A stretch of 64,000 nucleotides of DNA, taken from contig CAUDNR010001791.1 of the NCBI GenBank assembly GCA_958430865.1, forward strand, positions 24,259-88,258, given 5' to 3'. Position 1 is the first letter of the stretch. Each line of letters begins with the position of its first letter. Source of the DNA: Entrophospora sp. SA101 (Eukaryota > Glomeromycota > Glomeromycetes > Entrophosporales > Entrophosporaceae). This document shows, piece by piece, positions 336 to 64,000 of this stretch. Position numbers and translations under genes: made by a program. Under the pieces are notes generated by a model, which was not told where the DNA came from, searched no databases, and was given only the letters and a program-made list of their open reading frames with translations.

Positions 336-383
336 TCATACTCACAATATATGTAGATGCGTGTGATGGAAAAAGAAAAAGAA

Positions 384-1882: not shown

Positions 1883-1995
1883 GAACAAGTTCGGAATCTA
1901 TCTCAAGTATTCAAGTATTATTTATTAAAATAAATTTAAATTTTTTTTTGTTGTTTATATAGTTAATTTTTTTAAATTTAACTGATGTCACATGA

Positions 1996-2082: not shown

Positions 2083-2263
2083 TATAGTTTTATAGTCGTA
2101 CTATATACGTGGATCACTCTACCCTTAAGTTGATATTATCGATGATGTCATAATGCTGATGATGTCATGATGTCGACAATGTTGGGGATCATTAATAATA
2201 AATATTGCAAAATTCGTTTTTTTTTTACTTTTAAAAATATTTTTTTGCTTCTTTGTAGTAAAT

Positions 2264-5163: not shown

Positions 5164-5195
<32 letters not shown>

Positions 5196-9052: not shown

Positions 9053-9054
9053 TA

Positions 9055-10367
9055 CAGTCCCCCAAAAAAGTAATGGCGGGGTGCCTTTTATGCCATGTAA
9101 TCCTTTTTATGGTGCGATCAGTTGCTGTTGGGATATATTAGATTACTATCGGTATATTTTGAGACTTGTACTACACTGTTTGTTTACTTCGAATTTGAAT
9201 ATATATTTTGATTAGTAAAGCATATTACTTCGACAAATGGAAAATTTTTCTTTAAAAGAGAACTGCAAAGCGGTTAAGAACTTGTGGCGACAAGGCTACA
9301 AAAGTCCAACACAAATCTCTCAAAAGACTAGTGTTCCTCTTTGCTCCTGTGAACAATATGTAGCTCACCTTCGCAAAAATGGCAAAATTCCAGAAATTCA
9401 TCGTTCTGGATGTCCATGCAAAGTTTCACCAAAAATGCACCGCCAGATCGGCAAAATTGTAAATTTGAATCACTTTGTGAAATTAAGGCTCGACTTGAGG
9501 AAACCCACACAGATTTTGAGGCGACTGAACAAACTATTCGTAACGAACTCTCTAGACTTGGTTATGTTGCTACTTTACCAAGACATGTCCCTCTTCTCAC
9601 CAAACAAGCCAAGCAAAACCGGTTGGTATGGGCTCAAAGCCATTCACGTTATAACTGGCGCAAGGTCGTATTTTCCGATGAAACAACTTTGCAGATGTTT
9701 TGAAACACTTGTTTGGCTTGGTCACGCTCTGAAAAACCCATTACACCAATGGTAAAACACCTGTTTAAACTTCACATGTGGGGTGTAATTTGTGCATGTG
9801 GAAAAGTTGGAATGTGTATGTTCGTGGAGAACATGGATTGACACCTCTATCGAAAAATTCTCAATGAGAATTTGTATGACAATGCAAATAGCATTGGCAG
9901 GGATCAAAGCTGGGTTTTCCAGCAAGATAACGATCCCAAACATACTTCAAAGGAGGTTTGTGCAGGTCTTGAATTGCATCTGCCGAAGCGGGTTTTGCCT
10001 TGACCATCATATAGCCCAGATCTCAACCTGATCGAAAATATCTGGGCAATTCTCAAGCACAATGTAGAGAAGAGGGTCAAGGCAATGGTGGTGCAAAAAT
10101 GAATGTGTCACAGGAGACATTTATTGCGTTAGCAAGGGAGGAGTGGAAATAATATACCTGATGATGTAGTTCTTAGATGTGTTACTAGTATGCCAGATCG
10201 CATTTGGGTCTGCATTGATGCAGAAGGAGAACATACCAAGTACTGATTTTTTATAGGTATATCCTCTACCTAAATATGGTCTGGATATAAAAATTTGGAA
10301 ATAGTTTCTTATGTAGAAAATTTTTTTATATAAAAAAACACTCCGCCATTACTTTTTTGGAGGACTG
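9055..10367 (+). mobile_element. Tc1/mariner DNA transposon, copy A
   Basis: The left end CAGTCCCCCAAAAAAGTAAT and the right end, read on the opposite strand as CAGTCCTCCAAAAAAGTAAT, form terminal inverted repeats continuing into GGCGG(G/A)GTG. TA dinucleotides flank both ends (9053-9054 and 10368-10369), as expected for the TA target-site duplication of this superfamily. The element is about 1.3 kb, typical for Tc1. The same element, at the same place, is in copy C (49059-50371). Confidence 0.93.
9237..10250 (+). pseudogene. Tc1-type DDE transposase, broken
   Basis: The frame starts at ATG 9237 with an HTH-like N-terminal domain (VKNLWRQGYKSPTQIS). Near 9430-9465 it must shift into the frame giving EIKARLEETHTDFEATEQTI and KVVFSDETTLQMF (first Asp). 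A TGA at 9701-9703 interrupts it; the continuation carries WVFQQDNDPKHTS (second Asp) and SPDLNLIENIWAILK (catalytic Glu). All three catalytic positions can be found, but a frameshift and several stops separate them. The protein is therefore dead and the element could move only with a transposase supplied in trans. Confidence 0.9.
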
Positions 10368-10369
10368 TA

Positions 10370-11173
10370 CCTTTCCTGACTTCTACTTCTTTCTCTTGAG
10401 TTTTTCCTTCTCGGGTTTTATATAAAACGTTTGCAGATTTTTCCTTGTCATTTTATTCTAAAGTGTTTAATAAAAACAATTATTACCAACAAGTAAAGTA
10501 TTTAAATATTATGATAATAATTAAAAAGATCCAAACTGAATAGTTACAAAAAAGAAGCTATCAATTAAAACTAAAATATGGTTGTTTATTTATATATCAC
10601 AATTACTATTTATTTGTAATATAAATATGTAATTTCAAATTGATGTAAAAAAAAAAAGAATTAACACAAATTTCCTTCTAAAAATCTCTAAATAACAATC
10701 AGTTATCAATTTAACTAATAACCATTTTTTAAAGAACCAATTAACATCAATTGGCATGACATCATTATACCTGCAATATAAGCAATGGAAGAAAGCTGTC
10801 ATATTTTCAGAACCACACTAGTTAAAGGAGAAATTGAATGGTGTGGTGCCATGTTGCTAATTGTAGATGAAATGGTTTTTTCCATTAATTTCAATTAAAT
10901 TAATGGGGTCTGATTCATTTCATCAACAGTCACTTCACCAACACCCATTTCGTTGAAAGTTCTTTTCGTCAAAAATTATTTCGTCACAAAAAAAAAAACT
11001 TCATTAAACAAATTTCTCCTCACACACCTCACACACTCCACTTTCCTCACCTAATTTCTTAATAGTCGAATGATTTGTCACATTAAACGATTGGGAAGTG
11101 TATTTTCCGAAATTTTTTGGTGATCAATGTCGAAATTCTATTAATAAAATTAGCCACAAACCTTAATTTTAAC
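10370..11173. other. Intergenic, right end of copy A
   Basis: No gene supported. It contains a small inverted repeat around 10879-10905 (TTCCATTAATTTCAATTAAA region) and a TTTCGTCA-rich stretch at about 10950-10990. It ends at the duplication breakpoint. Confidence 0.3.
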
Positions 11174-40343: not shown

Positions 40344-40391
40344 TCATACTCACAATATATGTAGATGCGTGTGATGGAAAAAGAAAAAGAA

Positions 40392-41677
40392 TCAAGCAGA
40401 TAAAAGCTCTCTCAAGTGAGTCTTTAATTTTGCAAAATCTCGAATACCTTCAGCAAGTTTTTCTGTAGCCATAGCATCTTCATTAAGTGCCCATCTGAAA
40501 CCTTTTTCATCAAAGGTAACTTTTTCTTAACTAATTATAAACCACGATTAACAATTTGTTGTGAAGTGCGTATATTTGACGTATATAAATAGTATGCATG
40601 CATAATATACATGCATTATGTATATACAAACATTTTACACATAAACACAAATAACTTACCATTTTCAGGACTTAGGTTACGTTTAATGGTTTTTTTAGTA
40701 TCAGAATGTAATTGTTCTAACAATTTTGGACTAATAATCAAAAGATCACAACCAGCTAATTCTTCGCCTTCCCCTGTGTTACGGAATAAAGCACCCATAA
40801 CAATAGTTTTTACAATAATAATAAATTTTAGTGACAGATTTTACACCTGGATCTTCTTTAGCTGAGAAATCATGTCCTGTACTTTTCTTATACCAATCAA
40901 GAATACGATCAACAAATGGTGAAACCAAAGTTACGCCTGCCTCAGCACATGCGACTGCCTATTATATATGAGAGGAAGAGAAACAGGGAGCAAGAAAACA
41001 AACAAATATGTAAAAAGAATTTAATAATAACCTGAGGGAAAGAGAAAGTAAAGTGAGATTACAATGGATTCTTTCTTTCTCAAGTATTAAGCAGCTTTAA
41101 TGCCTTCCCAAGTAGAAGCAATCTTGATTAATATTCTTTCCTTACCAATACCAGCTTCCTCATAAAGTCCAATCAAACAGTTAGCTTTAGCAATAGTCCC
41201 TTCAGTGTCAAATGATAAAATTGCATCTACTTCAGTTGAAACTCGCCCAGGAATAATTTTAAGAATTTCATTATCAAAATTAATCAACTATAATTATGTA
41301 TTTGCGTGAGTTATATATATATATATATTAAGATATTATAAGTATTCTCCAATTTTACCAATTTATCAGTTGCTAATTCAACTTTTTTATCAATTGATCT
41401 ATATAATAGATATGTGGAATATATTGTGAAATGATGAGCATAATTAGGTTTTTGTGTGGCTTGTAAAATCAAGAAAGGTTTGTTGTTGCATCTTGAGGCT
41501 TATACTTGGCAATCGTTCTTGTATAAATAGGATTAATTGATAAAAATTATGATTGGTGTTGGTTGAAGAATTTATTAATTTATTGAAAAAACTCTTACAT
41601 TCAAAATAACCAGTGTCAGCAACAACTTTAGTGTATTGTTTAATTTGATCAAGAACAGAAGTCACGAACTCATGCAA
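40392..41677 (-). pseudogene. Transaldolase pseudogene, copy C
   Basis: Same lesions as 384-1669: loss of one base after IKAA, the 13-bp loss in the last exon, the one-base loss near LSLIL, and the deletion of about 65 bp removing VDSAIKYAKSKNG. A few SNPs around 40860-40885 (TAGCTGAGAAATCATGTCC against TGGCTGAGAAATCTTGTCC) separate it from copy A. Since A and C share every lesion, the gene was dead before they split. Confidence 0.85.
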
Positions 41678-42267
41678 ACTTGTGTAGTAATTTCGAATTC
41701 TCTTTCATCTAAATAATTTTTTTTGTCTATAGTACACAGAAAACATTACAACTAATGAAATGAAGTAATCTTGCCCTGATTGCAACCCACTACGTCAAAA
41801 CTTCTCACCATAATTTGGAATGATCAAGCCATAAGTTGTACTTCATGTGTCCTCTTTGCTTTTGAGCATTTATTAATAGAACACAATCCAGAACAAGTTC
41901 GGAATCTATCTCAAGTATTCAAGTATTATTTATTAAAATAAATTTAAATTTTTTTTTGTTGTTTATATAGTTAATTTTTTTAAATTTAACTGATGTCACA
42001 TGATTTTTATTATAAAATCCGCTAATTCCAAATTTCTCGTTTTTAATTTAGCGGATAAATTTCTTGGACCAAACTTATCCGTTAAATTAGTATAGTTTTA
42101 TAGTCGTACTATATACGTGGATCACTCTACCCTTAAGTTGATATTATCGATGATGTCATAATGCTGATGATGTCATGATGTCGACAATGTTGGGGATCAT
42201 TAATAATAAATATTGCAAAATTCGTTTTTTTTTTTTAAAAATATTTTTTTGCTTCTTTGTAGTAAAT

Positions 42268-42745
42268 ATGGCAGCAGCACCATCATATGCAGAAGTTTTG
42301 AAAAAAGATACCGATATTGATAATAAAGAACATGATAGTAGTGAAACAGAAGCTAATTCCACCCTCCACAACACCTCCAGTTATTCTTACGAACCTAGTG
42401 CTTCTAAAGGTATAATAACAATAAGCAGTGGTGGGGTAGATGATAACTATACATCTAGAGGAGGAAGTGATAAAAAATCGAAAAAATTATCAAAAAAAAC
42501 AATTATTCTAAGTGCTACTTTAGATATCGCTTTAGCTGGAATGCTGATTGGCTGGATTTATAAGAAACCTACTGCTACTAAAATTCAAATTGGTGTTGGA
42601 TCAATTGGCTTATTAACACTATATGGCGCTCAATGGTAATCTTGATTGATTATTTTAATTATTGTTATAATAATAATTGTTATTAACTAATATTTATATT
42701 TTCAAATTTACTTTTAGGATTACATATAAAAAATATAAATATTAA
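42268..42745 (+). CDS. Small two-helix membrane protein, unknown function, copy C
   Basis: Exons 42268-42635 and 42718-42745. The layout is as in copies A and B, with protein differences D-S-S-E for D-N-S-E, L for F in NSTLHN, E for K in SYEPSA, and V for I in GGVDDN. It differs from copy A at nine or more sites within about 340 bp, although the flanking sequence is almost identical. An upstream in-frame ATG at 42175 exists because a short deletion opens the frame. The conserved start is 42268. Confidence 0.62.
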
Positions 42746-44602
42746 ATTATTTCTATTATTTCCCCAATCTTTTCAATTATTTTAAATCATACTTCATTAA
42801 TTACTTTACATACATCTTCACCCCCAAAGAATGTTATTCTTTTTTAACGAATCGATAATAATTAATAAATAGTAATAATTAATAAATAATATTTAATAAA
42901 AGAAAATAAATTACAGTTACGATCATATAAAAATTTCTCTACATGTGTTAGAAACATTACTATTATACAAAATACCTTTAATACTAAGAACAACCTCCCA
43001 ATAATAATAATAACAACATTTTTGGAAAAAGTTATTATTACTATCTCGACACTGGAGAATAAACTAATTGATAATTCAATATTTTTTTGATCCACTAAGC
43101 TTTTTCAATAAAAAAATGTACATAGAAACAACTTTTAAGAATATTATCTTGTAAACCAACGCCCCATTGAAGTTGTACCATGCTCGTAATTTTGTGTACA
43201 TCACTACCACTAAGTCAGCGATAATACGCCAAAACAGATGTTATGTGCTATTAACAACATATATACCTGATTTTTGCTTTTATATTTTTTTTCGCAGAAA
43301 ATAATTTCCAATTGGTTAGCCTTTCAGTATTAGTAGATTCCACTATAAAAAATTACTAATACTAATGATTAAATCGATAATTTTGATTATTTATTATTTT
43401 AACACACTCTTTAAACCAAAAGAATTATGCTCATTGTTGAAAAATGTGGGAATCATCAATTAATATTCATTCATCAGATAAGAATTATGTAATTGTTTAA
43501 TATATCGTAAAGTGCAAGACACCTAGTCCTGCAACCTTTTTTTGGTCTTGTAGATCCTTTAGCATTCCAAAAATAGGAATATAGCATCAAAAAAACGAAT
43601 CGTGGTTTTGAAGCCAAGACCTTTTGCTACAAAGTTACAATGTATAAACAAACATATATGAAAAAATAGATATAAGAAATAAATTTTTTGTCTATTTAAT
43701 TAGGTGTTGAAAATCGCAGTTATTGACCTGGTGATTGTATCGTTGAGACATTTTGTTTTGATGGTAATATTGATAAAGATGTTCATGAAGATACTTATCG
43801 TGTTAGCAATGATAATGATAAATATATTGCAACTTTGAAGCCATGATAATGTGAGAAAGGTCATGGATTTAATTCTTGATTTTGGTCTTACATCTTCATT
43901 TTTGGAGGAATTAAAGAATCTGCAAGACCAATAAAAGTTGTGGGTTTTGAAACGAGTTTAATTTTGGGGGATAAATTGGATGAAGAAGCTTTGCAATAGT
44001 AAATTATACTTATCTCTATTAATAAATATAAAAGTTTTGGTAACTAGATATAAAGTAACCATTTAAAAATATTTCTAATAATAGTGAAATATATGTTATT
44101 ATTATGGTTATTATTATTTGGAGTGTTGAGAATGTTAGATTCCTGTAAAAAAAATTATTGATATTTTTCAAAGAAATATTTGTACTTTATGCAATTTTAT
44201 TTTAGGTTTCTGCAAATATATATATATGTAAAATATGTGTGTATGAATGTGTATAATCTAAAGAAAAAAAAATTTACATTGATTTTGAAAGAAATCTATC
44301 AATCATTGTTATTATGCTAAAAAAATATGAAATGTGAATTGTGATTTTTTTGAGTGTGTAAGATGAGTAAACATGCGTAAATGTGTGAATGCAAGTATGT
44401 ATAAATGCAGAAATTTATATCTGTCTACCTAATCTATCTATCTATTTAATTAACTAACTAATGAATTAGACGCTGGTTATTAAGAATGTGGTGGCTAAGA
44501 TAACAATTATAATTATATAATGGTAATGGTGTTTTTAACGAGTATTGGATTTTTAATCAGAATCTACAAGATTGTCATTACTATCATCAAGATTCAGTAA
44601 TG
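42746..44602. other. Intergenic, copy C
   Basis: Counterpart of 2742-4598, with no gene. The coding-like but stop-interrupted stretch is at about 43708-43996. Confidence 0.35.
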
Positions 44603-45167
44603 TTAGATGATTGATGGAGTTGAGGTTAACAATGCATTACTACTATATGATCTACCAGATAAAGTACGTCTTATCTTTCCACTTTTATCACTACAAAAAT
44701 GATGCATTGTCGGGTAGGAAGTATGCGGAGTTGACATTCGAGATAATTTTTCCTGGATATCCTCTGGTATAATCAGTAGACCAGCAGCTAAACTTACACG
44801 ACGTTGTTGTCCTTTAATTGATGATGAAGACGACGACGACGAGGACGACGATGATGATGATGGTGATGATGGTGACGATGGTGACGATGGTGATGACGAT
44901 GATAGTGGGGATGGATTGGTGATTGACATCATTGATTTTGTTTTATTAGTGGTAGAAATGGGATGTGATGATTTTTTTAATATGGGTGTTTTTGATTTTG
45001 AACTTAATGATGGTAATAAATTATCAATAAACTTTGACACAAGGATTGTTTTTGTATTATTATTATCTTTAGAAATGCTAGTTCTAATATTTGAAAATTT
45101 TGGAGAACTTGTTTGTGAATTATTATCATCATAATCAGTCTTCTTCTTCTTCTTCTTCTTCTTGTTG

Positions 45168-45199
<32 letters not shown>

Positions 45200-46324
45200 T
45201 ATTTCATCCCAATAAACACGATTTTTTGCCAAAGTGTCAAGAAAGATTGTAGCATCGTTTAGAAATAAAGCCAATGCTTCAAAATATGGTTTGACAACGA
45301 AATCACCAAAACCAAGACTTATTTGTGACTGATGAGCTTGTTCTCTATCCATATCTGGAGATACAGGCAGGTTTTTTTGTTTTTCCAAGTCACCTTGTTT
45401 AAAAAATTCCTCAACAATAGAATCAGACCAACGTTTAGATATATCCCATGGACGTACAGCATTACTCAGATCAGCAGCATGAAGTAAAACTTTTAAAAAA
45501 ATATCACGTTGATCTTTATCTAATAGCTTTGAAGGTGAACTTGTAGACATTGAAAAATATTCAGGTGAGGAAGCAATGGAGGAGCTTGATGAATAACTAC
45601 CACTACCATTACTACTATCATTATCCAATTCCTCGCCACAAGATTCATCAGAAGATGGTGATGAAGAAGAACAAATGTTTGTAGAAGAAGTGGATGATGA
45701 TGATAAATTAATAATATTATGCAAAGATTCTAACAATTCATAATGATTCATCATATCAGTTGCTAAAATTATTTTCTTTATCAAAGATTTCAAAGTGAAG
45801 TCAATTTGTTGTGGATCCATTCCTTGGAAATCGTTGTTGTTGTTGTTATGTAAATGACGAAACAATTTATGTTTTGATAGCAACTCCATTGTCAGTGTGC
45901 AAGAATAATTTTCTAATACAGATTGATTATTATATTTGATTGCTAGAGGCGTTCTTGCATTAACCTGGTAAACATTATTTAAACCGGGATGTCCTATATC
46001 ATGACACAATCCAGCTATCATCAAACAAATCGAATCAAAGTGAGTCAAATGTTTGGCAGCACCTAAATCAACCAACATGTAGTATAACATGGCCACAACA
46101 TCTGCCGCATGATAAAATGAATGATAATCAGTTGTAAAATAGCCTTTTTCAACATCGATAATAAAATCCAACATTTCTGATTCTTGTATTTGTAAACAAC
46201 CACTCAAATCCAATTTCACCATCATACCCAACACTATACCATATAACTCTGGTATTGACCAATCCCATACGTTAAAATAGATTCCAGTGTCTGAAGATAA
46301 TTTATTATACAAAAATTTTAACAT
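44603..46324 (-). CDS. Class I 3',5'-cyclic nucleotide phosphodiesterase, copy C
   Basis: 573 residues, identical in translation to 4599-6320, with the same metal-binding residues (His68, His72, His108, Asp109, Asp285), Ser-rich insert and Asn/Lys/Ser runs. Identity even across the homopolymer tracts points to a very recent duplication or to the same locus assembled twice. Its role is degradation of cyclic nucleotides. Confidence 0.9.
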
Positions 46325-47494
46325 TGTCTACAAAAAAGGAAACGAAAGGGAGATAAGTAAACAAAGATTTAGTAATGCAACAATAATATATTAGATTAAA
46401 AAAAGGACCTACGCTTTCACATATTATTAATTTGTCAGAAGGTAATGAGTTGTATTTTAATAAAAGCATGTTTTTTATAGATTATGTGTTAGTTTCATCT
46501 AATAATAATAAATTAGCAGAAATAAAAAAAAATAATAAAATGAATCTATATTTATATAAATACTCTATATGTCTATAATATCAAAAAAGTATTATTGTTT
46601 TGTTTGTAAAAAAAAGTTTTTTAAATTTTGGCGTCAGTGATGATGACACAATAATGTAATTTGTAACGTGGTTTTTTTCTAAATATAAATAAATATAAAA
46701 TCATCGACAATCCTAATTTGTGTAATTTGTAATAAAGGATAATTAATTGGGTAAACAAAGGATATGTATGGGAGCAACAACAATTTTGGCTTCGAGACAA
46801 TGAATTATTGTATAGTTTATTAGTAAAATTAGTAAATGAAGGAAAGATAAATAAACGAACTTATTCCATATTTATTTATTTATTTCATTTTAAAATAAAC
46901 CATACATCTATCAAATTCATTTAAAATCTCTCTATTGCAAAATGATATCATTGAATAGAAATAGGCTTAAGCGGATTAGATTGTTTGATCGAGTTGAAAA
47001 ATAGATAGGTTCTCGTATTTGGTGATCTTTGATTACAACTGATTGAAAGTTTTCTGTGTATGATGACGATATGTTGATTAATAATTACTCCAAGATGCCT
47101 GCGACTTTACGCCTTCTTCCATTACTCTTTATCTTGTGATTTGCCATGGTAATCTTTGAAGGTAGTCAGTAGATCAACAAATGAAATCAGTAACTAACTA
47201 ACTAACTCGCTCCAACCAATTGGGAATATCGAGCAAACTTGGATAGGAATATTCCTTTGATTTTTTCGTGTTTGAGATTTAAACAATTTTATTGTTTGTA
47301 CAAAAGACAAATATTTCTTCGAATCAACAAATCTTGTGATGTCACGTATTCAAGTATATATTAATATATTTAAATTATTATGTGGCTCGTCCGTATCCCC
47401 TTAAAGATCTGCACCGCGTGAAGTTCACAATAATGTTTTAGACTTAATATTAAGGATACTCGATTTGTATACTGCAGAATTTTTTGTTTCCATG
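46325..47494. other. Intergenic, copy C
   Basis: Counterpart of 6321-7490. No gene. Confidence 0.3.
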
Positions 47495-48264
47495 AATGAA
47501 ACCCATATTAATATTAATATTAATATGCAATAATACAAAATAAATTTTATATTAATAATATTACTAATATAGTAGTACTAAATAGGGTATTTTTGATGTT
47601 AAATTTTGAGGGTCGCGTAAGATGCATTTTTTGAGAAATTACTATTATTATTATTATTATATATTTTCGATGGTTGCCGTCATTTTAGATCTATTTGTTT
47701 AAACATTAATACAATATTTACAATATTGTATACAAATAAGAACTATTAATAGTACGTAATATTTATTACCTATTACCCATTAGTAACAATCATCCGTCGT
47801 TCAACCATTAAATACAATGTTATATATACAATATGAATAATAGAATCTAAGATTGTGTTGGTCTTTAAAAGCCTGCCAGTCCTTTTTGAACCACGAACCA
47901 GCGGATCCTTCTTAATAAGGAAATTGTGAATTATAATTATTAATATTAATTTTAAATATTGCAAATGCCGTCCAATCGTATGTTGGACATGTGACATAGC
48001 CTCTTTCGTATTTTTTGAATTTTATTAATATATTTTTATTTAGATTTTTATTTTTTTATGTGCTAAAGTGAGGCCTTGTGACCACGTTTATTTATTTAAA
48101 CTTCAATGCATTATTAAATATTTACGCGTAATCTTACCCCAATTAACCAATTATTAATTTAATAATAGTGAAACAAAAACAATCTTAAAGTGTGCTTACA
48201 GATTCGCTGAAGCTTTCTAAGTACAGGAAAGAGGCAGTAATCAGGATAAATTCACAAATTAAAT
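47495..48264. repeat. 770-bp repeat unit, copy in C
   Basis: Third copy of the block at 7491-8260 and 12479-13248. Confidence 0.8.
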
Positions 48265-49056
48265 TAATTGTATATGAAATCTTGCAATTAATCAAAACGT
48301 TAACTCGAACTCGGCCGTAAAACGTAAAATAATTGAGATTGACCAAAAGCTACCTTCGCAATATGCATTTCACATCAAAATACTATCGAGTTAACCAGTC
48401 TCAAAAGACCAGATCAGACCGGTCAAGCTCAACCTCAAGTCAAAACCAAATTAAAATTATATCTTAAAATTAAAAGTCGAAACTGGTTTTTTGGCTTCGC
48501 ACAGTTTCAAAACAATTGATTTCTTTATGGCTATTTGCATGTCACCTTCTTTTAATCTGTTCGCTTGCTTCTTCAGTTTGATCCCTTCTAAGGTACACTT
48601 CCCGTTGGTGCGGATGACATGTATGTAATAATCATATCAACGATTGGAAATGTATGACTTTTTTTAACAAATAAACTTTATAAATATAAATTATATTGTA
48701 TTCGCCCGAAATGCTTTTGATTAGATCCTTCGACTAGGACTTGGGTTAGAAGAAATGTGTCTACCTCTTTTCCTATTATTATTAACAATGTATGTTAAAA
48801 TTAATAGTAAATTGTCAAATTATACTTTTTGTAGGCAATTTACTATGACTTCTTTTTTCCTTGTTATTTGATTTCTTCTAGCTATAATAGATGCATATTT
48901 ATTCATTAGTTGAGTTTGTGCAATTAATACCAATGAATATATTCGTTGTTAAAAATGATATCTTGTTGGTTTTATCTTCATTGATATCTGAAGTTTGTGA
49001 GGTGGAGAGAGTTGGTAACCTTATCATTATTTGTAATTACTTTCTTAATCTCAATA
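48265..49056. other. Intergenic, copy C, left of the Tc1 element
   Basis: Counterpart of 8261-9052, with no gene. Confidence 0.3.
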
Positions 49057-49058
49057 TA

Positions 49059-50371
49059 CAGTCCCCCAAAAAAGTAATGGCGGGGTGCCTTTTATGCCAT
49101 GTAATCCTTTTTATGGTGCGATCAGTTGCTGTTGGGATATATTAGATTACTATCGGTATATTTTGAGACTTGTACTACACTGTTTGTTTACTTCGAATTT
49201 GAATATATATTTTGATTAGTAAAGCATATTACTTCGACAAATGGAAAATTTTTCTTTAAAAGAGAACTGCAAAGCGGTTAAGAACTTGTGGCGACAAGGC
49301 TACAAAAGTCCAACACAAATCTCTCAAAAGACTAGTGTTCCTCTTTGCTCCTGTGAACAATATGTAGCTCACCTTCGCAAAAATGGCAAAATTCCAGAAA
49401 TTCATCGTTCTGGATGTCCATGCAAAGTTTCACCAAAAATGCACCGCCAGATCGGCAAAATTGTAAATTTGAATCACTTTGTGAAATTAAGGCTCGACTT
49501 GAGGAAACCCACACAGATTTTGAGGCGACTGAACAAACTATTCGTAACGAACTCTCTAGACTTGGTTATGTTGCTACTTTACCAAGACATGTCCCTCTTC
49601 TCACCAAACAAGCCAAGCAAAACCGGTTGGTATGGGCTCAAAGCCATTCACGTTATAACTGGCGCAAGGTCGTATTTTCCGATGAAACAACTTTGCAGAT
49701 GTTTTGAAACACTTGTTTGGCTTGGTCACGCTCTGAAAAACCCATTACACCAATGGTAAAACACCTGTTTAAACTTCACATGTGGGGTGTAATTTGTGCA
49801 TGTGGAAAAGTTGGAATGTGTATGTTCGTGGAGAACATGGATTGACACCTCTATCGAAAAATTCTCAATGAGAATTTGTATGACAATGCAAATAGCATTG
49901 GCAGGGATCAAAGCTGGGTTTTCCAGCAAGATAACGATCCCAAACATACTTCAAAGGAGGTTTGTGCAGGTCTTGAATTGCATCTGCCGAAGCGGGTTTT
50001 GCCTTGACCATCATATAGCCCAGATCTCAACCTGATCGAAAATATCTGGGCAATTCTCAAGCACAATGTAGAGAAGAGGGTCAAGGCAATGGTGGTGCAA
50101 AAATGAATGTGTCACAGGAGACATTTATTGCGTTAGCAAGGGAGGAGTGGAAATAATATACCTGATGATGTAGTTCTTAGATGTGTTACTAGTATGCCAG
50201 ATCGCATTTGGGTCTGCATTGATGCAGAAGGAGAACATACCAAGTACTGATTTTTTATAGGTATATCCTCTACCTAAATATGGTCTGGATATAAAAATTT
50301 GGAAATAGTTTCTTATGTAGAAAATTTTTTTATATAAAAAAACACTCCGCCATTACTTTTTTGGAGGACTG
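49059..50371 (+). mobile_element. Tc1/mariner DNA transposon, copy C
   Basis: Same element as 9055-10367 with the same TA borders (49057-49058 and 50372-50373) and the same inverted termini. It is at the same site within the duplicated segment, so it was copied with it and is not an independent insertion. Confidence 0.93.
49241..50254 (+). pseudogene. Tc1-type DDE transposase, broken, copy C
   Basis: Carries the same frameshift and the same TGA (49705-49707) as the copy at 9237, with the DDE residues still traceable in SDETT, QQDNDPKHTS and PDLNLIENIW. The lesions are shared, so the element was already inactive when the segment duplicated. Confidence 0.9.
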
Positions 50372-50373
50372 TA

Positions 50374-51177
50374 CCTTTCCTGACTTCTACTTCTTTCTCT
50401 TGAGTTTTTCCTTCTCGGGTTTTATATAAAACGTTTGCAGATTTTTCCTTGTCATTTTATTCTAAAGTGTTTAATAAAAACAATTATTACCAACAAGTAA
50501 AGTATTTAAATATTATGATAATAATTAAAAAGATCCAAACTGAATAGTTACAAAAAAGAAGCTATCAATTAAAACTAAAATATGGTTGTTTATTTATATA
50601 TCACAATTACTATTTATTTGTAATATAAATATGTAATTTCAAATTGATGTAAAAAAAAAAAGAATTAACACAAATTTCCTTCTAAAAATCTCTAAATAAC
50701 AATCAGTTATCAATTTAACTAATAACCATTTTTTAAAGAACCAATTAACATCAATTGGCATGACATCATTATACCTGCAATATAAGCAATGGAAGAAAGC
50801 TGTCATATTTTCAGAACCACACTAGTTAAAGGAGAAATTGAATGGTGTGGTGCCATGTTGCTAATTGTAGATGAAATGGTTTTTTCCATTAATTTCAATT
50901 AAATTAATGGGGTCTGATTCATTTCATCAACAGTCACTTCACCAACACCCATTTCGTTGAAAGTTCTTTTCGTCAAAAATTATTTCGTCACAAAAAAAAA
51001 AACTTCATTAAACAAATTTCTCCTCACACACCTCACACACTCCACTTTCCTCACCTAATTTCTTAATAGTCGAATGATTTGTCACATTAAACGATTGGGA
51101 AGTGTATTTTCCGAAATTTTTTGGTGATCAATGTCGAAATTCTATTAATAAAATTAGCCACAAACCTTAATTTTAAC
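50374..51177. other. Intergenic, right end of copy C
   Basis: Counterpart of 10370-11173; no gene. Confidence 0.3.
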
Positions 51178-55242: not shown

Positions 55243-58200
55243 ACATATTTTAAAAGACTAATGCAAGGTTAGAACTATTCAATCAATATTCTAAAGAAAA
55301 AAACAAAAACAAGAAATTATCCGAGACATTGGCCGATCTCAACAAAAAACTCAAAGAATACGTGAGCACAATCAATCAATCATCACATCATATTTATTAC
55401 AAGATAACATAATAATAACGTGTTAATATTTGGTTATATTTAGGTTCCCAAAGCTCAGGAAAGAAAAAAAGAGATTACAAAAATAGCTAATGAGTGTAAC
55501 AATTTGTCATCACAGCTTAACATGAGAAATGAAGAAATTGGATATTTAAGTGAAGAGGTGCAAAATCTTCAATTTGAAAAAGACCAGCTTAGCGAACGAC
55601 TATTGCAACTAGATGCTGGTAAATATATTCTTTTATTTCCAAAAATATATTTTAAAATTAATTTACAATTATAATGATAATTTTGATTTTATTTTTAGAA
55701 AGACAAATAGTCATGGACCATAACACAAGTCTAATCAGAGTTGTTGAAAGTCTTAAACAAAGTGGTGGTTTAACCGGTTTACAAACTCCAACAACGACGA
55801 TATCTTCTACTGAATCTGATACTTTACCACATGATGTTCCAGAGTTGATTCAAGTCTACACCAGAGTTAAAGCTGAACAACAATGTCATGTCATCAAGAT
55901 TCAGAGACTTGAAAATCAAGTTAAAGATTTGGAACAAACTAAAGAGAAATTATTGGATTCCATTAAATATATTAGAGGGGTGAACATTCGTCTGAAAAGT
56001 CAAGCATATTTGTTAAGCGCAGAACTTGAAAATGAAAGAAAATTACATGTTGAATTATCAGATTATATTAAAGGAAATGATTTGAGTAATCGTGATAAAT
56101 TATTATTAACAACAACCAATAATAATAGTAGTAATAGCGAAGACGGTTCTGCTCAAAAATTACAGGATCTTAAAAAAGAAAATTCGGAATTAAAGGTAAA
56201 TCATTATATATGTGGGCATGTGTTTATTTATTTAAATATAATTATAATAATGTATTTGTGTGTGATAGATGGAATATGAAATAATCAAAAGTGAATTGAA
56301 GAATATTGAAAAAAATTTAGAAGCAGCAAATAAAGAGTTGTTTAGTTATCGGCTTGAGAGAACAGAATATGAATTCCATAAAAAGTCATTGGAAGGTAGT
56401 TGAATGATTGATTGAATGATTGATTGATATATTAAAGCAAAATTATATAATAAACATTATTTTTTTTTTTTGGATAATCAGATAATTACAAAATTCTAGA
56501 AGCTCGATTTAATCTCAAAGAAGAAGAATGTCGTAGTGTTAAGGAAGTGTTGGATCAAATACGTAAACTGAATCAACAAATCGAAGAACAATTTTCAAAG
56601 GTATATATCATATATACATATATATCAGTGTTTAGTGTGTCATATTTATATTTCTTAATAATATTATTCCTTTATTAATTATGATTTTTTTGATAGGCAA
56701 ATAATGAAAGAACAGTAATGAGTGCTGAGCTTAATAACGTGAAATTTGAACTAGCTTCAGCCAAGGACAAATTATCTGATTCACAACGAGAATATGTTAA
56801 AGATTTGAATGAATTACATGTTGCAAGAGAGAAAGCAGAAAATTCATACAAGGAGGCACAAACATTGAAACAAGCTAATCAAGAACTTGAAAACAAATAT
56901 AACCAAACACAAGAGGAATTAAATAAATCTCAAGCCGAAGTTGAAAATCTTAAAGTGCAATTATCAGAATTGGATGAAAAACTTTCTAGTACTAATATTA
57001 AATGGACTGAAGAAAACCAAAAATTTGTAGATTCTGCTAAACAAGCAAGTGGTAAAGTTGATGAATTACAAACTAGTATTGATGAATTGAAGAAAAAAGT
57101 TGAGGAGCAAGCTGATGAATTGAAAAAATCTCAAGAAAGATTGACTGTTTATGAACAAAGTGAGCAAGGAGAATTCATTACTAAATTAAGGTGATATTAA
57201 AAAATTTTTTTTTAAAAAAATTTTTTTTCTTTAGTATTTGTAAAATAAAATTTAAATATTTGATTTAATTAATAGGAAAGAATTAGATTCTGCTAATGAA
57301 GTAATAAGTGTATCGAATAAGACAGCAGATGATCTTAAAATTTCCCTTAAAACACTTGAACTTGTTTCAACTAATGCCAAAAAAGACTATGAACAAACTA
57401 AAGCTACTCTAGAAAAAGAAAGAGTCGAATTCCAGGTATGATTACGGATTTTTTTTTAATGTTAGATTTGCCTCATGCATTTAACATTTATAATTGTTAT
57501 AATTGTAATGCAGTCACGATCAAAAGATTTTGATAGAATGGATGAAGAAAGTCAAAAAATGAGAAGTGAACTTTCACAAGTTAAACGAGAATTTACAGAA
57601 ATAACAATGGAAAAGAAACAACTTGAAAAGGAATTGAATGATATCAAAAATAAATTCGAAGATGATATAATACAATATCAATCAGAAATTCGAAAAAAAG
57701 AAGATATTTTGACAGAATTACAAAACAAATACAATCATGAATTGCAAATTCATATTAAAGATTCTCAAATGTTGAATGAAGTTAGACAACAATGCTCACA
57801 ACTACAATCTGATATTAAAAAGATAACGGTAATGATTAATCATGATAATGATGATGATAGTTATTTTAAAAAGCGAACTGATTGAATAATTGATCTTTTG
57901 ATATTATTTAAATCAGAATCAAAAGGAAACTTTAGAATTGCTATTGTCCCAAGAAAAAGAAAATCTCAATAGGGAATTGACGGAGTCAAGGACCCGGTAA
58001 AGATAGATGACAATTAAGATCTTATTCTAAAGATTATTTATTCAAAATTGCTCATTATAAATTTTTTTTTAAATCTAGCTGTAAAGATCTTGAAGAAAGT
58101 AACAGTGTCATTCAGAGCTATCTTGATAAGGAAACTGACATGTCAGAAGATAAAGTGATGCCAATACTGAGAAAGGAGAATGAAAGATTAATGGGTCAAA

Positions 58201-59561
58201 GAGAATTCTATCAACAAGAAGTTGAAAAATATAAAGCACTTCTTGAATTGAAACAGAAGACTTTTGATGAATTGGAACAAACATTAAATAAAGTAAGTGA
58301 CTGGCTGATAGAAAATATTCTTAATTGTATCATAAAACATTCTGATTGGAGTTTTTTTTTAGGAACGAGAGCAAAAAGATTCTATTGATTTAGAGCAATT
58401 GAAATCTCAACTACTTGAGAAACAAAACCAAATAAAGATACTTGAGGAAAGTAATAGAAGTCTTAGATCTGATTATGATAAAATGAAGAGCGAGGTTGAA
58501 CGATTGAATAAGTCAATAGATGATTCCAATAATGATAAACTTAAAATTGGAGGTATACACATCTTTTTCCTTGAAAAATGATTTATAATATTTATGCTAA
58601 ATATATCAAAAGTTTTTTATTCAATGATTTTTTTCCTTCATTTTTTTTTTTTTTTTTTTAAAAAAAAAGGCGAGAATGACAAATTAAAATTAGAAATTGA
58701 AAAATTTGGCAAAGAATTAAAACGTTTAGAAGATGATAATGTTTGGTGGAAAGATCGATTCCAGAGAGTTTTAGAGAAACATGGAGTATGTACATTCTTT
58801 TCTCCTCTACATGATTGTTGTTGTTGTTATTGTAATAATTCTAATCATCACCATTTATATTAATATTTAATTTTATTATAATAGATAAGTGATCCAAATG
58901 ATCTTCAAAAAATGAAAGATGATTTAAAAAAAATTAAAGAAGAAAGTGACATACTAAAAACTGAAAATCCAAAATTGAAGACAGAAGTACTTAGTCTGAG
59001 AAAGCAAATTCTTGAATTCAAAAGACAATATGAAAATTTCAAGAAACAATCTGAAGATACAAAAAAACAATTTGAAGATTCAAAAAAACAATCCGAGGAT
59101 TCAAAAAAACAATCTGAAGATTCAAAAAAACAATCTGAAGAGTTGAAAAAACAAATAGATGAATTCAAGAAACAAATAGATGACTTGAATAAAGAAATTG
59201 CTAGACTTAAGGAAGCTGATAAAAATTTTCAAACTCTCAAAACACAGGTAGGTTTTAGTAATATATATATGTTTGATCAGTAGTTTTTTATTTTATAAAT
59301 GAATAATAATTTAATAATGTTATTTTTTTTTTTTTTTTGATTTTTAGCATGAAAGTTTAAAAGGTTATGCGCAAAAATTGAAAACAGAATTATTAAGATT
59401 AAAAACTCAAGAAACACTTTGGACCAATAAAAATAAAAAACTTGAGAATGAAATTGCTGAGTTGAAAAAGGCTCAAGCAACTACATCGACTCCTATACAG
59501 TCGGTAGCTGAAGTCACTCCAACGGAACAACAGCAGCAACAGCAGCAGCAGCAGCAGCAGC

Positions 59562-59593
<32 letters not shown>

Positions 59594-60412
59594 AAACAAC
59601 AATTGCAGCAGCTGGCACTACAACGACAACAGCTGCAACAAAGACAACAACAACTGCAAATCCAAAAACAACAGCAACTGCAAAAACAGCAACAGCAACA
59701 GCAACAGCAGCAGCAGCAGCAACTACAACAGCAACAGCAACAGCAAAAGCAACAGCAAAAGCAACAAGTAGAAGCTTCGGCTGCGGAGACTACTACCATC
59801 ACCACTCCAGGCCATGTGGATGTTCCTAATCCTGAAGTAATTTCTAAACCTGTTGAAACTCCAAAACTTGAAACAACAACAACTGAAACAGAGACACAAA
59901 CTCCAACAATAACTAATCCTACTACAACTAAAACTGAAGTTGATGCTGCTGAAACTGATGCTGATGCTGAAAATGAAGCTGATACTGCTACCGCCACCGT
60001 TGAACCTACCGTTGAACCTACTGTTGAACCTATTGTTGAACCTACTGTTGAACCTATTGTTGAACCTACTGTTGAGCCTACTACTGAACCTACTATACAA
60101 CCTACCGTTGAACCTACCGTTGAGCCTACTATTGAGCCTACTATCCAACCTACTGTTGAACCTACCGTTGAACCTACCGTTGAACCTACTATTGAACCTA
60201 CTATTGAACCCACTATCCAACCTACAGAGACACTAATTAAAACTCAGGATGCACCTAAATCTGAAGAAACATATAAACCACCAGTAAAATTACAAAGACG
60301 GGGTCCTTTAGAGCTACCACCATCTACTGTTACTCAAATCAAACGACCTAGAGAAGAAGAACAACCTCAAGCAACAGATGATATAAATAAAAAGGCAAAA
60401 ACTGATTCTTGA
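53037..60412 (+). CDS. Nuclear-pore basket protein, TPR/Mlp1 type
   Basis: ATG 53037 (MDNEEIIQVEDVPIITEGIS) starts a gene of many short exons, ending at TGA 60412. Nearly the whole protein is predicted coiled coil. Family blocks: LPHDVPELIQVYTRVKAEQQ, SAELENERKLHVELSDYIKG, VMPILRKENERLMGQREFYQ and, most telling, DNVWWKDRFQRVLEKHG followed by ISDPNDLQKMKDDLKKIKEE, which matches the W-K-x-R-x-Q-x-(I/V)-L-x-K-(Y/H)-G plus D-P motif of TPR/Mlp1. Towards the C-terminus come seven-residue repeats (SEDSKKQ, 59050-59150), poly-Gln, four-residue VEPT repeats, and a basic tail with KRPREEE. Proteins of this family build the nuclear basket and act in mRNA export and checkpoint signalling. Exon borders of the small exons are approximate. 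The pogo-like MITE lies about 140 bp upstream. Confidence 0.88.
59520..59770 (+). repeat. Poly-Gln/CAA-CAG tract in the TPR gene
   Basis: CAG and CAA codons make a long Gln tract broken by Lys, Leu, Arg and Ile. It encodes part of the C-terminal region and is likely length-variable between strains. Reverse frames over it are shadows. Confidence 0.95.
59998..60233 (+). repeat. 12-bp minisatellite encoding VEPT repeats
   Basis: About 19 units of a 12-bp sequence (GTTGAACCTACC type) encode VEPT, IEPT, IQPT, VEPI and TEPT. The repeat stays in frame throughout, which supports translation. The unit length of four residues gives an acidic, proline-rich stalk. Confidence 0.95.
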
Positions 60413-61317
60413 TTATTTTTTAATGTATATTTTTTTGTTTTAACATTATTTATTCAGTTAATTGATTAAAGGTTTCTTTATTCAATTAATTGATTAAAGG
60501 TTTCTTTAATAATGTATATAAATGTTTTTTATTTTTTTTTTAACTAAAAAAGTATAGAATAGAAATTCATTTTCTCATTTTAATTAAAAATTTATTTTCT
60601 TTCAAAACGAACTTTAATATTTTAATTTTGATTATTGGGGTTTTATTATTTGATTACTTTCAATAAAATATACTGGAAAATTTTGACATCTCACAATGAA
60701 TTTCAATTTCAAATTTTCATTCATTATCAGTTATTGTGCAGGTACTAAAGTAAAAATTAATATTAAAGGTATTAGTATTAGTAATTAGTAATTAGTATAG
60801 AAAAAGATCCGTTTTTCACAAATTTATGAAGTCATTTATCCAAGATTATTATGTGAACCAATAATTTCATATCAATTTTGTGGGCAAATTAGGATTTATT
60901 ATTATAGAGGAAAATGATAAAAGGCGAATGAATGAATCAATTTATGTATTAATTCAACTATCATATCGAAAATTTATTTACAGAGATGTTGTATTGAATA
61001 GAGTTGTATTATGCAATGGTAAAGAAGAAAACTAGATACAATGATAAATATATTGAGATGTTTAAAAGCAAATAGTGAAATGTACAAGTATGCTTTGGAA
61101 TTACGTAAAGAAATTACTTGGGAAAATAAAATCATAAAATTAACTTTACACATTTTTATTGTTATTATTAAAATAAATTATATTGAGGAAAATTCCTAAA
61201 AATTTCATTGTTATTTGTTATTATTATTATTATTGATACGTTAATTATGTTAAACCGTTTAAAAAAATAAATAAATAATACTAACCTCTTACATTGAACC
61301 TATACTAAGTACAAGTC
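60413..61317. other. Convergent intergenic region, 3' of TPR and of the Fanzor-type ORF
   Basis: A 28-bp tandem repeat at about 60452-60507 (ATTCAGTTAATTGATTAAAG unit). Otherwise AT-rich, with no ORF. In characterised TnpB and Fanzor systems the guide RNA is made from the region at and beyond the 3' end of the nuclease gene, so about 61000-61317 (minus strand) is where one would look. I cannot identify a scaffold structure or the distal end of the element by eye. Confidence 0.35.
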
Positions 61318-62889
61318 CTACATAGACAGCCTACAATAAGGTGTCTCGGGTGTAAGCCACAACATCGTGAACGACTCTTGTTGTTTTTCTGTAATATACT
61401 TCAAAAGTATATTTCGAGCTCCGTTTACATCTCTATTAATGGTGGATTTGCAAGATGTACAATTAAAGATCTTTGAACTGCCCAAATTTGACTTGATGAC
61501 TCCACAACATCCACATGTTTTGCTGGTGTATTCCTCAGTGCATATGATGACCTTGAACCAAGGGTACTCGCAGGATTTGTGGAGCAAACGTTGGCGAAAA
61601 CGGTAATGTGACCAGGTCAACATTTGTCTTGCTGTTTTAGAGTGGATTTTTCTAGAACCGCATTTTTCAACCATATCTTGTGTTTTAAACTCAGGGAGCA
61701 AAACTATATGGTGGTTTTCACACAACCATCTTGCTAATCTTTTATGACATTCATCCACAAGATTACGGATTTTCTTGTGGATCCGGAACATGCACCGACA
61801 GAACTTATATCTTTTACGTTTATTTGTTTTGCCATGAATAGAATCCCTTTCACCTTGGATTCTATCATAATGCAAACACAAGCGATGTATTCTATTAATA
61901 TTCCCTTTTCCCCATTCTATAACCTTACCACTTGGGTTATAGCCAGTCGTGAAGGTTCTCACTCCTGGATCAAGAGAAATGATGCCGGTGCCTTTATTCT
62001 CTTCAACCACCGAAAATTTAGGACCTTGGTTATCAGCCTTAATTTCAAGTGGTTTGGGGATACACAAGTAGAATTCACCAAGACGATTCATGGCGAGACG
62101 AAGTTCGTAATTTATTTCAGGTATTTTTTCGCTTGTTTTAATACCCCCGAGAAACAAAAAATTACCACGATTTCTTCCCCAGTCCCTTGATGAAATGGTG
62201 ATGCATTGTGATTTATCTTTTTTAGATCTGAATTTCAATTTAAAGTTTTTTCTTTTTAAAGCAACATTAGACTTATAATTTTTTAAAAGGTCCATCATTG
62301 CTGCATCCCTAATGTCATGAGGTGTGTCAAGAACCCACTTAAGACTAATGTCTTTAAATTTTTCAGCTTTATTATTATTGATATAATTTTCACGTAAATA
62401 CTTTTTATTTTTGTTTTTTATATCACTATTGATTGCAGCTAGGCATTGGTTGTACGTCCAGCGTGCAGTACCAATCCATTTTAATAGTTTGTTTTTTTCC
62501 TCCGAATTAGGGTAAAGTCTAATTTTATGAGTTTTCCCTGGTGGAGGTTTTTTGGAGGAGGAGGCTGAAGATGAAGGAATAGCATCAGCGTCAAAAGAAG
62601 ATGGCGAAGTTAAATTTTCTTTTGAAGAAATTGCATCTTTGAAATTATTCCATATTCCATTTGGTAAAAGGGGATGATTATTTAAATCTACAGGTGTTGG
62701 TTTAATCGAGTCAACTGTAACCCATGAACCAAGGGCTAGTCTTTTTAAAGAGTCACCCCATTGACTTGAGCACAATACTTCACTATTAGTCTTTAAGGGT
62801 AACCAACACCAATTTGTGAGTTCTTGAGTGGATTCATCCCAGAATGGCTTACCGTATTCTCCCGAATATAAGCAACACCATTTTAACAC
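61318..62889 (-). CDS. TnpB/Fanzor-type putative RNA-guided nuclease
   Basis: A single uninterrupted frame of 523 codons. Counting from its first codon, residues 1-120 are a Trp- and Ser-rich extension. The TnpB-like core starts at about 122 (KIRLYPNSEEKNKLLKWIGT, RWTYNQCL). RuvC-I is IISLDPGVRTF (Asp307), RuvC-II is IVLLPEFKTQDM (Glu400), the zinc ribbon is TCGCCG and FNCTSC (Cys459, Cys462, Cys477, Cys480), and RuvC-III is INRDVNGARNIL (Asp487). All catalytic residues are present, and the close resemblance to prokaryotic TnpB suggests the Fanzor2-like group. Such proteins cut DNA guided by an RNA from their own element. The first codon is GTG, there is no in-frame ATG before codon 198, and a TAA lies two codons upstream, so translation needs an upstream exon or a non-ATG start, or the 5' end was lost. 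The frame opens inside the transposon-like inverted repeat. Confidence 0.87.
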   Translation of the reverse strand: MLKWCCLYSGEYGKPFWDESTQELTNWCWLPLKTNSEVLCSSQWGDSLKRLALGSWVTVDSIKPTPVDLNNHPLLPNGIWNNFKDAISSKENLTSPSSFDADAIPSSSASSSKKPPPGKTHKIRLYPNSEEKNKLLKWIGTARWTYNQCLAAINSDIKNKNKKYLRENYINNNKAEKFKDISLKWVLDTPHDIRDAAMMDLLKNYKSNVALKRKNFKLKFRSKKDKSQCITISSRDWGRNRGNFLFLGGIKTSEKIPEINYELRLAMNRLGEFYLCIPKPLEIKADNQGPKFSVVEENKGTGIISLDPGVRTFTTGYNPSGKVIEWGKGNINRIHRLCLHYDRIQGERDSIHGKTNKRKRYKFCRCMFRIHKKIRNLVDECHKRLARWLCENHHIVLLPEFKTQDMVEKCGSRKIHSKTARQMLTWSHYRFRQRLLHKSCEYPWFKVIICTEEYTSKTCGCCGVIKSNLGSSKIFNCTSCKSTINRDVNGARNILLKYITEKQQESFTMLWLTPETPYCRLSM

Positions 62890-62932
62890 ATTTTAGTCAA
62901 CAAAACTGCAGGTGTTGCTTATATTTGGGAGA
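62858..62932. repeat. Head-to-head pair of transposon-like terminal repeats
   Basis: 62858-62879 and 62911-62932 are inverted repeats of 22 bp with one mismatch. The right arm begins GGTGTTGCTTATATTTGGGA; the left, read on the minus strand, begins GGTGTTGCTTATATTCGGGA. A 31-bp spacer separates them. The right arm lies 72 bp before the pogo-type transposase ATG, as a left element end would. The left arm forms the first codons of the Fanzor-type frame. Confidence 0.85.
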
Positions 62933-63004: not shown

Positions 63005-64000
63005 ATGCCAAAAGTCAAACGTTCTTCATATTCTGTTGCTGAAAAGCTCCAAGTTTTGCAATATGCAAAACAATATGGTTTAAGATCAGCTGGGCGTCAT
63101 TTTACTATTGATCCTTCAATGATTTCTCGTTGGCAAAAACAAGAGGAAGAACTCGATTTAGTAAAACAAAAAAAGAGAAGACAAATTGGTAATAATTTAG
63201 GAAGAAAAGCAAAATATCCTGAGGCTGAAGCTGAATTAAAGGCATGGATTGTTGAATTTCGGCAAGATGGAATTGCTGTAACTCCTAAAATTGTTAAAAC
63301 TTACATGAAAGAACTTTTAGCAAACCAATTTTCTAATATTTATCCAGGTGCCAGTGAAAAATTTCTTGCATCAGAAAGTTGGTTCTATCGCTTTCTTAGA
63401 AGGTATGATTTTGCAATGAGACGTAAAACAAAGATTGGTCAGAAGCTTCCCGCTCACCTTGACATCAAACTTCTCGAATTTCAACAATTTATTATAAAAA
63501 AACAAAAACAATTTGAATATGAACTTTCAGAAATTGGAAATATGGATGAAACTCCTGTTTATTTTGATATGGTTGGAAATTTAACAATTGATAAACATGG
63601 TGCAAAAACTGTGCAAGTTCAAACAACTGGAAATGATAAAAACCGTTTTACATGTGTCCTTACAATTCTTGCAGATGGTACAAAATTACCACCAATTGTT
63701 ATTTTCAAAGGTAATTAAATTACAAAGAATTTACCTTCTCATCAAATCATTGTAATAATAATTGTCATTTTTAAAGGTAAACAAATGCCAAAGAATTTAC
63801 CTTCTCAAATCATTGTACTAATGCACCCAAAAGGATGGATGGATGAAATTGGAATGAAAGCTTGGTTTGATAAGGTTTGGAAAAGAAGACCCGGAAATAG
63901 AATTACAAGAAAAAAAGCTTTACTTGTTATGGATAGCTTTGAAGGCCACAAGACAGATTCTATCAAAAAAATTGCACAAAATGAAAACACTGATTTAGCA
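63005..64000 (+). CDS. Pogo/Tigger-type DDE transposase, 3' end outside the window
   Basis: ATG 63005 (MPKVKRSSYSVAEKLQVLQY) starts an HTH domain of the Psq/CENP-B type (GLRSAGRHFTIDPSMISRWQ). A second CENP-B-like HTH follows (AELKAWIVEFRQDGIAVTPK, ASESWFYRFLRRYDFAMRRK), then the DDE domain with GNMDETPVYFDM (first Asp) and KKALLVMDSFEGHKTD (second Asp). The third acidic residue would be beyond 64000. An intron at 63711-63776 restores the frame as PPIVIFK-GKQMPKNLPSQI, which matches pogo proteins. Without splicing, AAT TAA stops it. The open frame and canonical residues suggest a young element. It transcribes away from the Fanzor-type ORF and shares its terminal sequence. Confidence 0.88.
63701..63832 (+). 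repeat. 66-bp tandem duplication forming an intron
   Basis: 63701-63766 and 63767-63832 align with only a few substitutions and a short indel. Both start ATTTT(C/T)AAAGGTAA and share AAGAATTTACCTTCTC. The first copy provides the GT donor and the second the AG acceptor of the intron at 63711-63776. Confidence 0.85.

Follow-up and report, generated by a model that had tools for sequence, protein, structure and literature searches.

Does a long open reading frame for an RNA-guided nuclease in a fungal genome mark a working gene? The question is raised by a frame at positions 61318-62889 (minus strand) of the window, by which we mean the whole 64,000-nucleotide stretch analyzed here, taken from the glomeromycete Entrophospora sp. 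SA101 (assembly GCA_958430865.1, contig CAUDNR010001791.1; in our numbering C1299:24259-88258). The end of the window is also the end of its contig, and the genome searched comprises 101 Mb in 2123 contigs. The first-pass annotation had read the frame as a TnpB/Fanzor-type nuclease gene and had taken its length to indicate recent activity or selection. Our answer differs on the second point: very probably, the frame is what a recent insertion has left of one copy of a Fanzor2-type (IS607-lineage) gene for an RNA-guided nuclease, a gene that has multiplied in the genome. The insertion would be that of a pogo-like transposon, at a TA directly after native Fanzor codon 18. We give this reading as a whole a probability of roughly 0.85.

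Family and catalytic layout

The frame comprises the 523 codons first reported for it, without an internal stop. In a profile search of the window proteins, it matches the Cas12f1-like/OrfB zinc-ribbon family PF07282 (E = 1.7e-14; 54.2 bits against a cut-off of 26.3) and the OrfB helix-turn-helix family PF12323 (E = 2.9e-11, above cut-off), and the NCBIfam profile guided_TnpB is matched at 5.9e-35, also above cut-off; a match to PF01385 stays below its cut-off. The family match is far beyond chance, and the annotation of a TnpB/Fanzor-type nuclease in a eukaryotic genome is borne out. A protein database search found 2738 homologues. Most of the best 120 of these are unnamed and from metagenome-type sources; the named ones among the matches listed are from Diversispora epigaea, Gigaspora margarita, and the eukprot entry "Mycagemm." The coding region common to other genomic copies (61372..62850, minus strand, codons 14-506) spans the N-terminal domain, the WED/REC region, RuvC, and the zinc ribbon. 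It is followed by a C-terminal tail and stop (residues 507-523, 61318..61371, minus strand) with predicted local distance difference test (pLDDT) values <50, where the homologues P0002 and P0003 read the same DNA in another frame.

From the 120 homologues listed, 75 were aligned with the window protein, giving 76 rows. The RuvC-I residue Asp307 (61969..61971; all residue coordinates are on the minus strand) is kept in 75 rows, and its DPG triplet in 74. The four zinc-ribbon cysteines Cys459, Cys462, Cys477, and Cys480 (61450..61515) are each present in all 76 rows, as are Arg486 and the RuvC-III residue Asp487 (61429..61431). Position 400 (61690..61692), the canonical TnpB position, is poorly conserved (Glu 25/76, Lys 18/76, Ser 11/76), whereas position 452 (61534..61536), seven residues before Cys459, is Glu in 76/76. 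This is the place of the alternative catalytic glutamate of Fanzors: In PMC10711439, the DPG motif and an alternative glutamate just before the zinc ribbon are described as the molecular fingerprint of Fanzors. Both are found in the window copy, together with a C4 zinc ribbon (PF07282) followed by RD. The RuvC-II glutamate that canonical TnpBs conserve ∼50 residues before the zinc ribbon is not conserved in the aligned family. Thus all seven residues that the first-pass annotation had listed as catalytic or zinc binding are indeed present, but Glu400 loses its catalytic role to Glu452, and the catalytic RuvC site would consist of Asp307, Glu452, and Asp487.

Phylogenetic analysis separates the window family from eight canonical TnpBs at 100/100 and places it in a eukaryotic clade supported at 99/97. 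By sequence, fold, and tree (the last without Fanzor1 references), the nearest relationship is to IS607-lineage TnpBs and the solved Fanzor2. No Fanzor1 chains occur among the sequence and fold matches listed, which excludes nothing. Since the tnpA frame is broken in this family and no IS607 transposase was found in the genome (see below), we use the label "Fanzor2-type" rather than "IS607 element." On the sequence evidence, this is a Fanzor2-type nuclease gene family in a mycorrhizal fungus.

A probable insertion of a pogo-like element, and decay of sibling copies

The upstream end of the frame is foreign. Where other genomic copies extend so far, their similarity to the window ends at 62851 or 62852; four of them (L012, L017, L023, and L028) run on past this point through 18 more codons to an ATG (MQxSDS...). 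The window instead reads CCGTATTCTCCCGAATATAAGCAACACC, the end of a pogo-like transposon. At this directly observed junction, a TA dinucleotide (62850..62851) adjoins a 28-nt terminal inverted repeat (62852..62879, plus strand). A subterminal repeat, an inverted copy of the terminal one, follows at 62911..62932 (plus strand), inside the first 89 nt common to other copies of the element, and then a pogo/Tc5-like transposase frame at 63005..63718 (plus strand; PF03221 HTH_Tnp_Tc5, 7.9e-11). The open frame after it (63719-64000, plus strand) is cut by the contig end, where the window copy of the element runs off. With its leading TA, the repeat occurs 26 times in the genome at up to three mismatches. 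A complete copy of the element (L031) measures 1719 bp, has repeats at both ends and a TA on either side, and contains no Fanzor. Its short forms (L035-L037, 410-411 bp), which likewise lack a Fanzor, have both terminal repeats and TA flanks, seen at both ends of L035 and L036 as of L031. The pogo/Tc1-mariner-type assignment of the interrupter is based on the repeats and TA at both ends of L031 and on PF03221.

Codons 1-12 and part of codon 13 (62852..62889, minus strand) are therefore the terminal repeat read through from a GTG, not Fanzor. The first ATG of the frame comes only at codon 198, by which point the WED domain has already begun. In the AlphaFold model, the first 12 residues have pLDDT <50, and ten-residue means over residues 11-100 range from 57 to 95. 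The equation of frame with gene consequently holds from 62851/62852 downward, where the sequence is common to other copies, and fails from 62852 upward.

Some further observations were made on the two elements. The short pogo-like forms look like miniature inverted-repeat transposable elements. Within the pogo transposase region (63694-63822), a 66-nt stretch is present as two imperfect copies separated by a stop; L030 and L031 have it as well, and it may reflect an intron or a duplication. Upstream of the Fanzor ATG, L012 and L023 carry an inverted-repeat insert (ACTTTACCGACAATC... / ...GATTGTCGGTAAAGT) within the 5′ tandem-repeat region, probably another small mobile element.

In the genome, the window protein matches at least 114 stretches, corresponding to ∼47 places of Fanzor copies by hand count. 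Decay of the siblings is directly seen: All 13 other copies compared have stops or frameshifts and/or are truncated. L010 is clean over its 77% but has lost the 3′ end, and its native 5′ end contains a stop; L026 covers 19%. The ratio of nonsynonymous to synonymous differences (pN/pS) of the window copy against nine copies is 0.46-0.85, as is expected from sequences of once-functional elements that later decay. With all siblings compared broken or truncated and the window copy itself interrupted, the inference of recent activity or selection from the long frame is not supported; its freedom from stops fits a copy that was still young when the second transposon struck.

The history that we propose is as follows. 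Ancestral copies would have encoded a protein of ∼530 residues whose start, MQxSDS..., lay upstream of where the window frame begins. If it worked as Fanzor2 and TnpB do, this protein would have taken up a guide RNA made from the terminal part of the gene itself and cleaved DNA matching that guide through Asp307, Glu452, and Asp487. The pogo-like element would then have split off the first 18 native codons by entering at a TA behind them. With start codon and promoter removed, a full-length protein would not be expected from the window copy. Expression would thus be lost: despite an intact catalytic part, this copy is probably no longer functional.

Several points weigh against this reading. 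The tree included no Fanzor1 sequences, and the 13 copies compared are a part of the ∼47 places. Only one pogo end lies on the contig, the far junction with the Fanzor start falling outside it; when we sought that junction on a candidate contig (C89), the pogo end there adjoined unrelated sequence. A 10.8-kb block occurs twice in the window (336-11173 and 40344-51177, 99.84% identity). Finally, window positions 60000-61612 equal C626 (L024) at 99.4%, while the Fanzor body of C626 differs and matches C527 (L023), a pattern that may reflect either recombination among Fanzor copies or misjoining in the assembly.

Four alternatives deserve a hearing. The first is that the window copy is a working Fanzor gene, served by a spliced upstream exon or a non-ATG start, and that its frame does reflect activity or selection. 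The 523 codons without a stop and the full set of catalytic and zinc residues would be as expected, and the pN/pS values point to a lineage that was under some constraint. We consider this unlikely, given an insertion that displaces start and promoter and leaves codon 198 as the first ATG, the breakage or truncation of every sibling compared, and a T replacing the commonest G in the putative guide-RNA hairpin.

The second alternative is an assembly chimera, in which a Fanzor fragment and a pogo fragment were wrongly joined. The duplicated 10.8-kb block and the flank shared with C626 in front of another Fanzor body argue for it, and so does a contig that ends inside the pogo element. The assembly also has repeated blocks of 30-40 kb, and many Fanzor copies have an exact twin 30-40 kb away on the same contig; such repeats are probably assembly duplications of haplotypes. 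Yet the join falls exactly at the terminal-repeat end and the TA, as in complete insertions, and we regard a chimera as improbable.

Third, the Fanzor might be cargo of the pogo-like element, the two forming one chimeric transposon. The terminal repeat does abut the Fanzor frame, and capture of Fanzor1 by Tc/mariner elements has been published (PMC3627910). The repeat, however, opens toward the transposase and leaves the Fanzor outside; L031 is complete without a Fanzor, the short forms L035-L037 likewise lack one, and the other Fanzor copies compared have no pogo repeat at that place. We judge a chimeric unit very improbable and reject the pogo element as the Fanzor carrier. The fourth, that the frame is a bacterial or canonical TnpB, present through contamination or recent transfer, has next to no probability: Prokaryotic TnpB profiles do match and relatives exist in cyanobacteria, but the canonical glutamate is not conserved, DPG and the alternative glutamate are present, the eukaryotic clade stands at 99/97, the ∼47 hand-counted places lie in the same AT-rich eukaryotic genome, and the named matches include Diversispora and Gigaspora.

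The overlap with tnpA and the putative guide RNA

Relatives of the interrupted Fanzor2-type gene bear on where its N-terminal domain may come from. PMC6188088 describes the open reading frames of IS607 elements as often overlapping. At the virus-contig locus L071, an IS607 tnpA frame overlaps the tnpB frame. We examined 51 relatives, hand-picked from 160 loci. A tnpA frame of at least 100 codons with a KDRL-type motif is present in 26 of them, at an identical frame offset in 26/26. In 25 of the 26 the open frames of tnpA and tnpB overlap by ∼385-755 nt, an upper limit because open frames and not start codons were measured; in the 26th (L160), the tnpB end is broken. Fourteen of 26 virus loci examined carry the overlapping frame, and none of nine canonical TnpB loci does.

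At the sequence level, the Fanzor stretch LWLPTKTDC...SWF is the TnpA motif KDRLxRFG read in a shifted frame. At least 10 of 11 TnpA motif positions are encodable in the -1 frame of the N-terminal part in 41/121 proteins, against 0/41778 windows elsewhere. With the other shifted frame as a control, the best N-terminal score is 9/11, and one body window reaches 10.

In the window itself, the tnpA-equivalent frame has three consecutive stops after KD (62780..62788, minus strand). Stops are found at the matching place in eight of nine other copies examined (L011 being a near-duplicate of L010), and the ninth, L018, has no sequence there. Intact TnpA gave no convincing tblastn match to the genome's own copies, and the relic is recognized here by its frame position and by K or K-D before the stops only. 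The IS607 transposase domain PF00239 has no match in the genome, in a search that was positive in 10 of 14 control genomes. These frame comparisons indicate that tnpA is dead in this family. Because the stops are common to the copies, tnpA was lost before these copies spread, and the overlapping nuclease domain remained. The N-terminal domain has a pN/pS of 0.77 versus 0.43-0.61 elsewhere, so it is not demonstrated that the domain remained under selection once tnpA was gone.

The 3′ end of the gene, for its part, is conserved among copies through the stop codon. The first-pass annotation had made its case depend in part on a conserved 3′ noncoding region among genomic copies; such a region exists, and an objection from its absence fails. 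The DNA string GTTGGGGCTTACNCC is encodable in the C-terminal tails of 13 of 109 anchored proteins, in two different reading frames, against 0/2166 body windows and 0/2180 shuffled tails. Nucleotides conserved across reading frames suggest an RNA or DNA function. We propose an omegaRNA scaffold overlapping the frame end (61285..61420, minus strand), with the loop CTTAC at 61352-61356 and its candidate pseudoknot partner GTAAG at 61288-61292, followed by AGG (all minus strand). A pseudoknot between the apical loop of a stem-loop and bases near the scaffold end has been described for IS607 TnpB and predicted for Fanzor2, according to PMC10711439.

Since the DNA motif GGGGNTTACNCC is absent near the stop at all 33 viral loci examined, we compared loops with downstream bases instead. 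At 37 of the 51 loci (the window included), the loop of a small hairpin close to the stop has its complement in five downstream bases, in an A-rich context at what is presumed to be the right end. Matching the loop of one locus with the end of another as a control gives 14.1 ± 2.8 (maximum 24 in 500 shuffles). The pairing appears as GATAC, GATAG, GCAAC, GACGG, GCTTC, and others. The test was tuned over three versions, of which this is the third, with a fixed downstream context: With the first, a strict pattern, 15/51 loci had a GATNN loop and a match to it downstream, and the second gave 36/44 versus a weak control (mean 22.3, maximum 31 of 300 shuffles). At least three of the 37 hits (L091, L099, and L159) appear to be spurious, and there are near-copies among the loci.

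Other results speak against a guide RNA. In the lowest-energy folds predicted for the window and for L050, CTTAC pairs with GTAGG instead, fold z-scores are -1.9 to -2.1 for three sequences, and Rfam gave no match at the gathering score for the window and 14 relatives (at a relaxed threshold, three chance-level matches in 61100-61600, far below gathering scores). The window copy also has a T where the commonest base in the putative hairpin stem is G. On balance, the conservation across reading frames and the pseudoknot-compatible pair make a guide-RNA locus at about 61285-61420 likely.

Beyond the putative scaffold end lies a 3′ region (61194..61284, minus strand) common to some other copies, which then diverge from one another. 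The opening part of this region, TTAGTATTAT, is similar in many copies: With up to three mismatches over 26 nt, it is found at 18 genomic places, of which some are duplicates of the assembly. Several copies remain alike beyond it up to a right border, judged by eye, that reads ...CTTGTT before differing flanks, and others diverge earlier. The left border of the Fanzor unit is blurred by ∼100-nt tandem repeats. In four regions examined by eye for "empty" versions of the larger unit, lacking the Fanzor, we saw no clean empty site.

Taken together, these observations allow a tentative hypothesis, to which we give somewhat less than even odds: The Fanzor2 N-terminal domain may have been overprinted out of frame on the 3′ half of IS607 tnpA, and the glomeromycete nuclease may have kept the domain and multiplied after tnpA was lost, within a larger unit. 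As that unit also fixes the sequence past the scaffold, its copies would, if the scaffold end is placed correctly, share one element-encoded guide instead of a guide taken from the insertion site. In the titles and abstract openings retrieved by our literature search, we found none on this glomeromycete Fanzor family or on an N-terminal overprint.

Surroundings and comparison with known systems

Elsewhere in the window, a host-type phosphodiesterase gene (PF00233) has its nearest match in Entrophospora candida (89% over 64% of the query). A frame with long glutamine runs and PT/VEPT repeats (PF04886) lies at 59378-60412, with coiled-coil frames ahead of it at 55674-57194; together these may form a nucleoporin TPR/Mlp-like gene (the PF07926 match is weak and below cut-off).

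The window copy illustrates an ordinary fate of a mobile nuclease gene and shows that a long open frame need not mean activity. The surrounding family is the more useful part: It records how Fanzor2-type nucleases have spread through the genome of an arbuscular mycorrhizal fungus with no IS607 transposase of their own. Its likely guide-RNA locus stands out by nucleotides that are conserved even where the reading frame changes. The tnpA overlap offers a concrete and testable origin for the Fanzor2 N-terminal domain, bearing on how bacterial TnpBs gave rise to eukaryotic Fanzors. The parts most deserving of specialist attention are the overprinted domain and the possible fixed guide.

Among known systems, the interrupter resembles pogo/Tc5-like DNA transposons in its 28-nt terminal repeats, TA ends, and HTH_Tnp_Tc5 domain, and is separate from the Fanzor system. 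Fanzor1 proteins (SpuFz1, GtFz1, and PpFz1) share the alternative glutamate, the DPG motif, and the zinc ribbon, as given in PMC10711439. They are characterized by large size, REC/WED insertions, and a TDG motif; the window protein is shorter, and the string TDG occurs in 5 of 121 proteins. The Fanzor2 of Acanthamoeba polyphaga mimivirus (L79, PDB 9b0l; belonging to ISvMimi by PMC3627910 and PMC10711439) is 22% identical to the window protein. Viral ISvMimi elements keep their IS607 transposase, as stated in PMC3627910, whereas here tnpA is dead and no resolvase domain was found in the genome.

Cyanobacterial "pro-Fanzor" IS607 TnpBs (a term from PMC10711439) and virus-contig relatives have, as the window does, DPG and the alternative glutamate in most cases examined, an N-terminal PFW...SWF-type region, and a hairpin loop near the stop complementary to a downstream 5-mer; unlike the window, they include the 26 of 51 loci with an overlapping tnpA frame. 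Identity to the cyanobacterial relatives is 29%-34% in the leading matches listed. Of the virus-contig relatives, L070 (IMGVR_UViG_3300013105_000001, 174.8 kb) has the best E-value, at 35% identity, and groups with the eukaryotic clade with weak support (93/35). Many virus contigs (L071-L107) carry TnpBs with the alternative glutamate, mostly with DPG and the N-terminal region. A last comparison is with Fanzor2*, the Fanzor2 proteins on non-IS607 eukaryotic transposons described in PMC10711439. For the Fanzor unit, we established neither terminal inverted repeats nor target duplications; as in Fanzor2*, the genes have multiplied in a eukaryotic genome without an IS607 tnpA, and the sequence past the putative scaffold end is common to copies.
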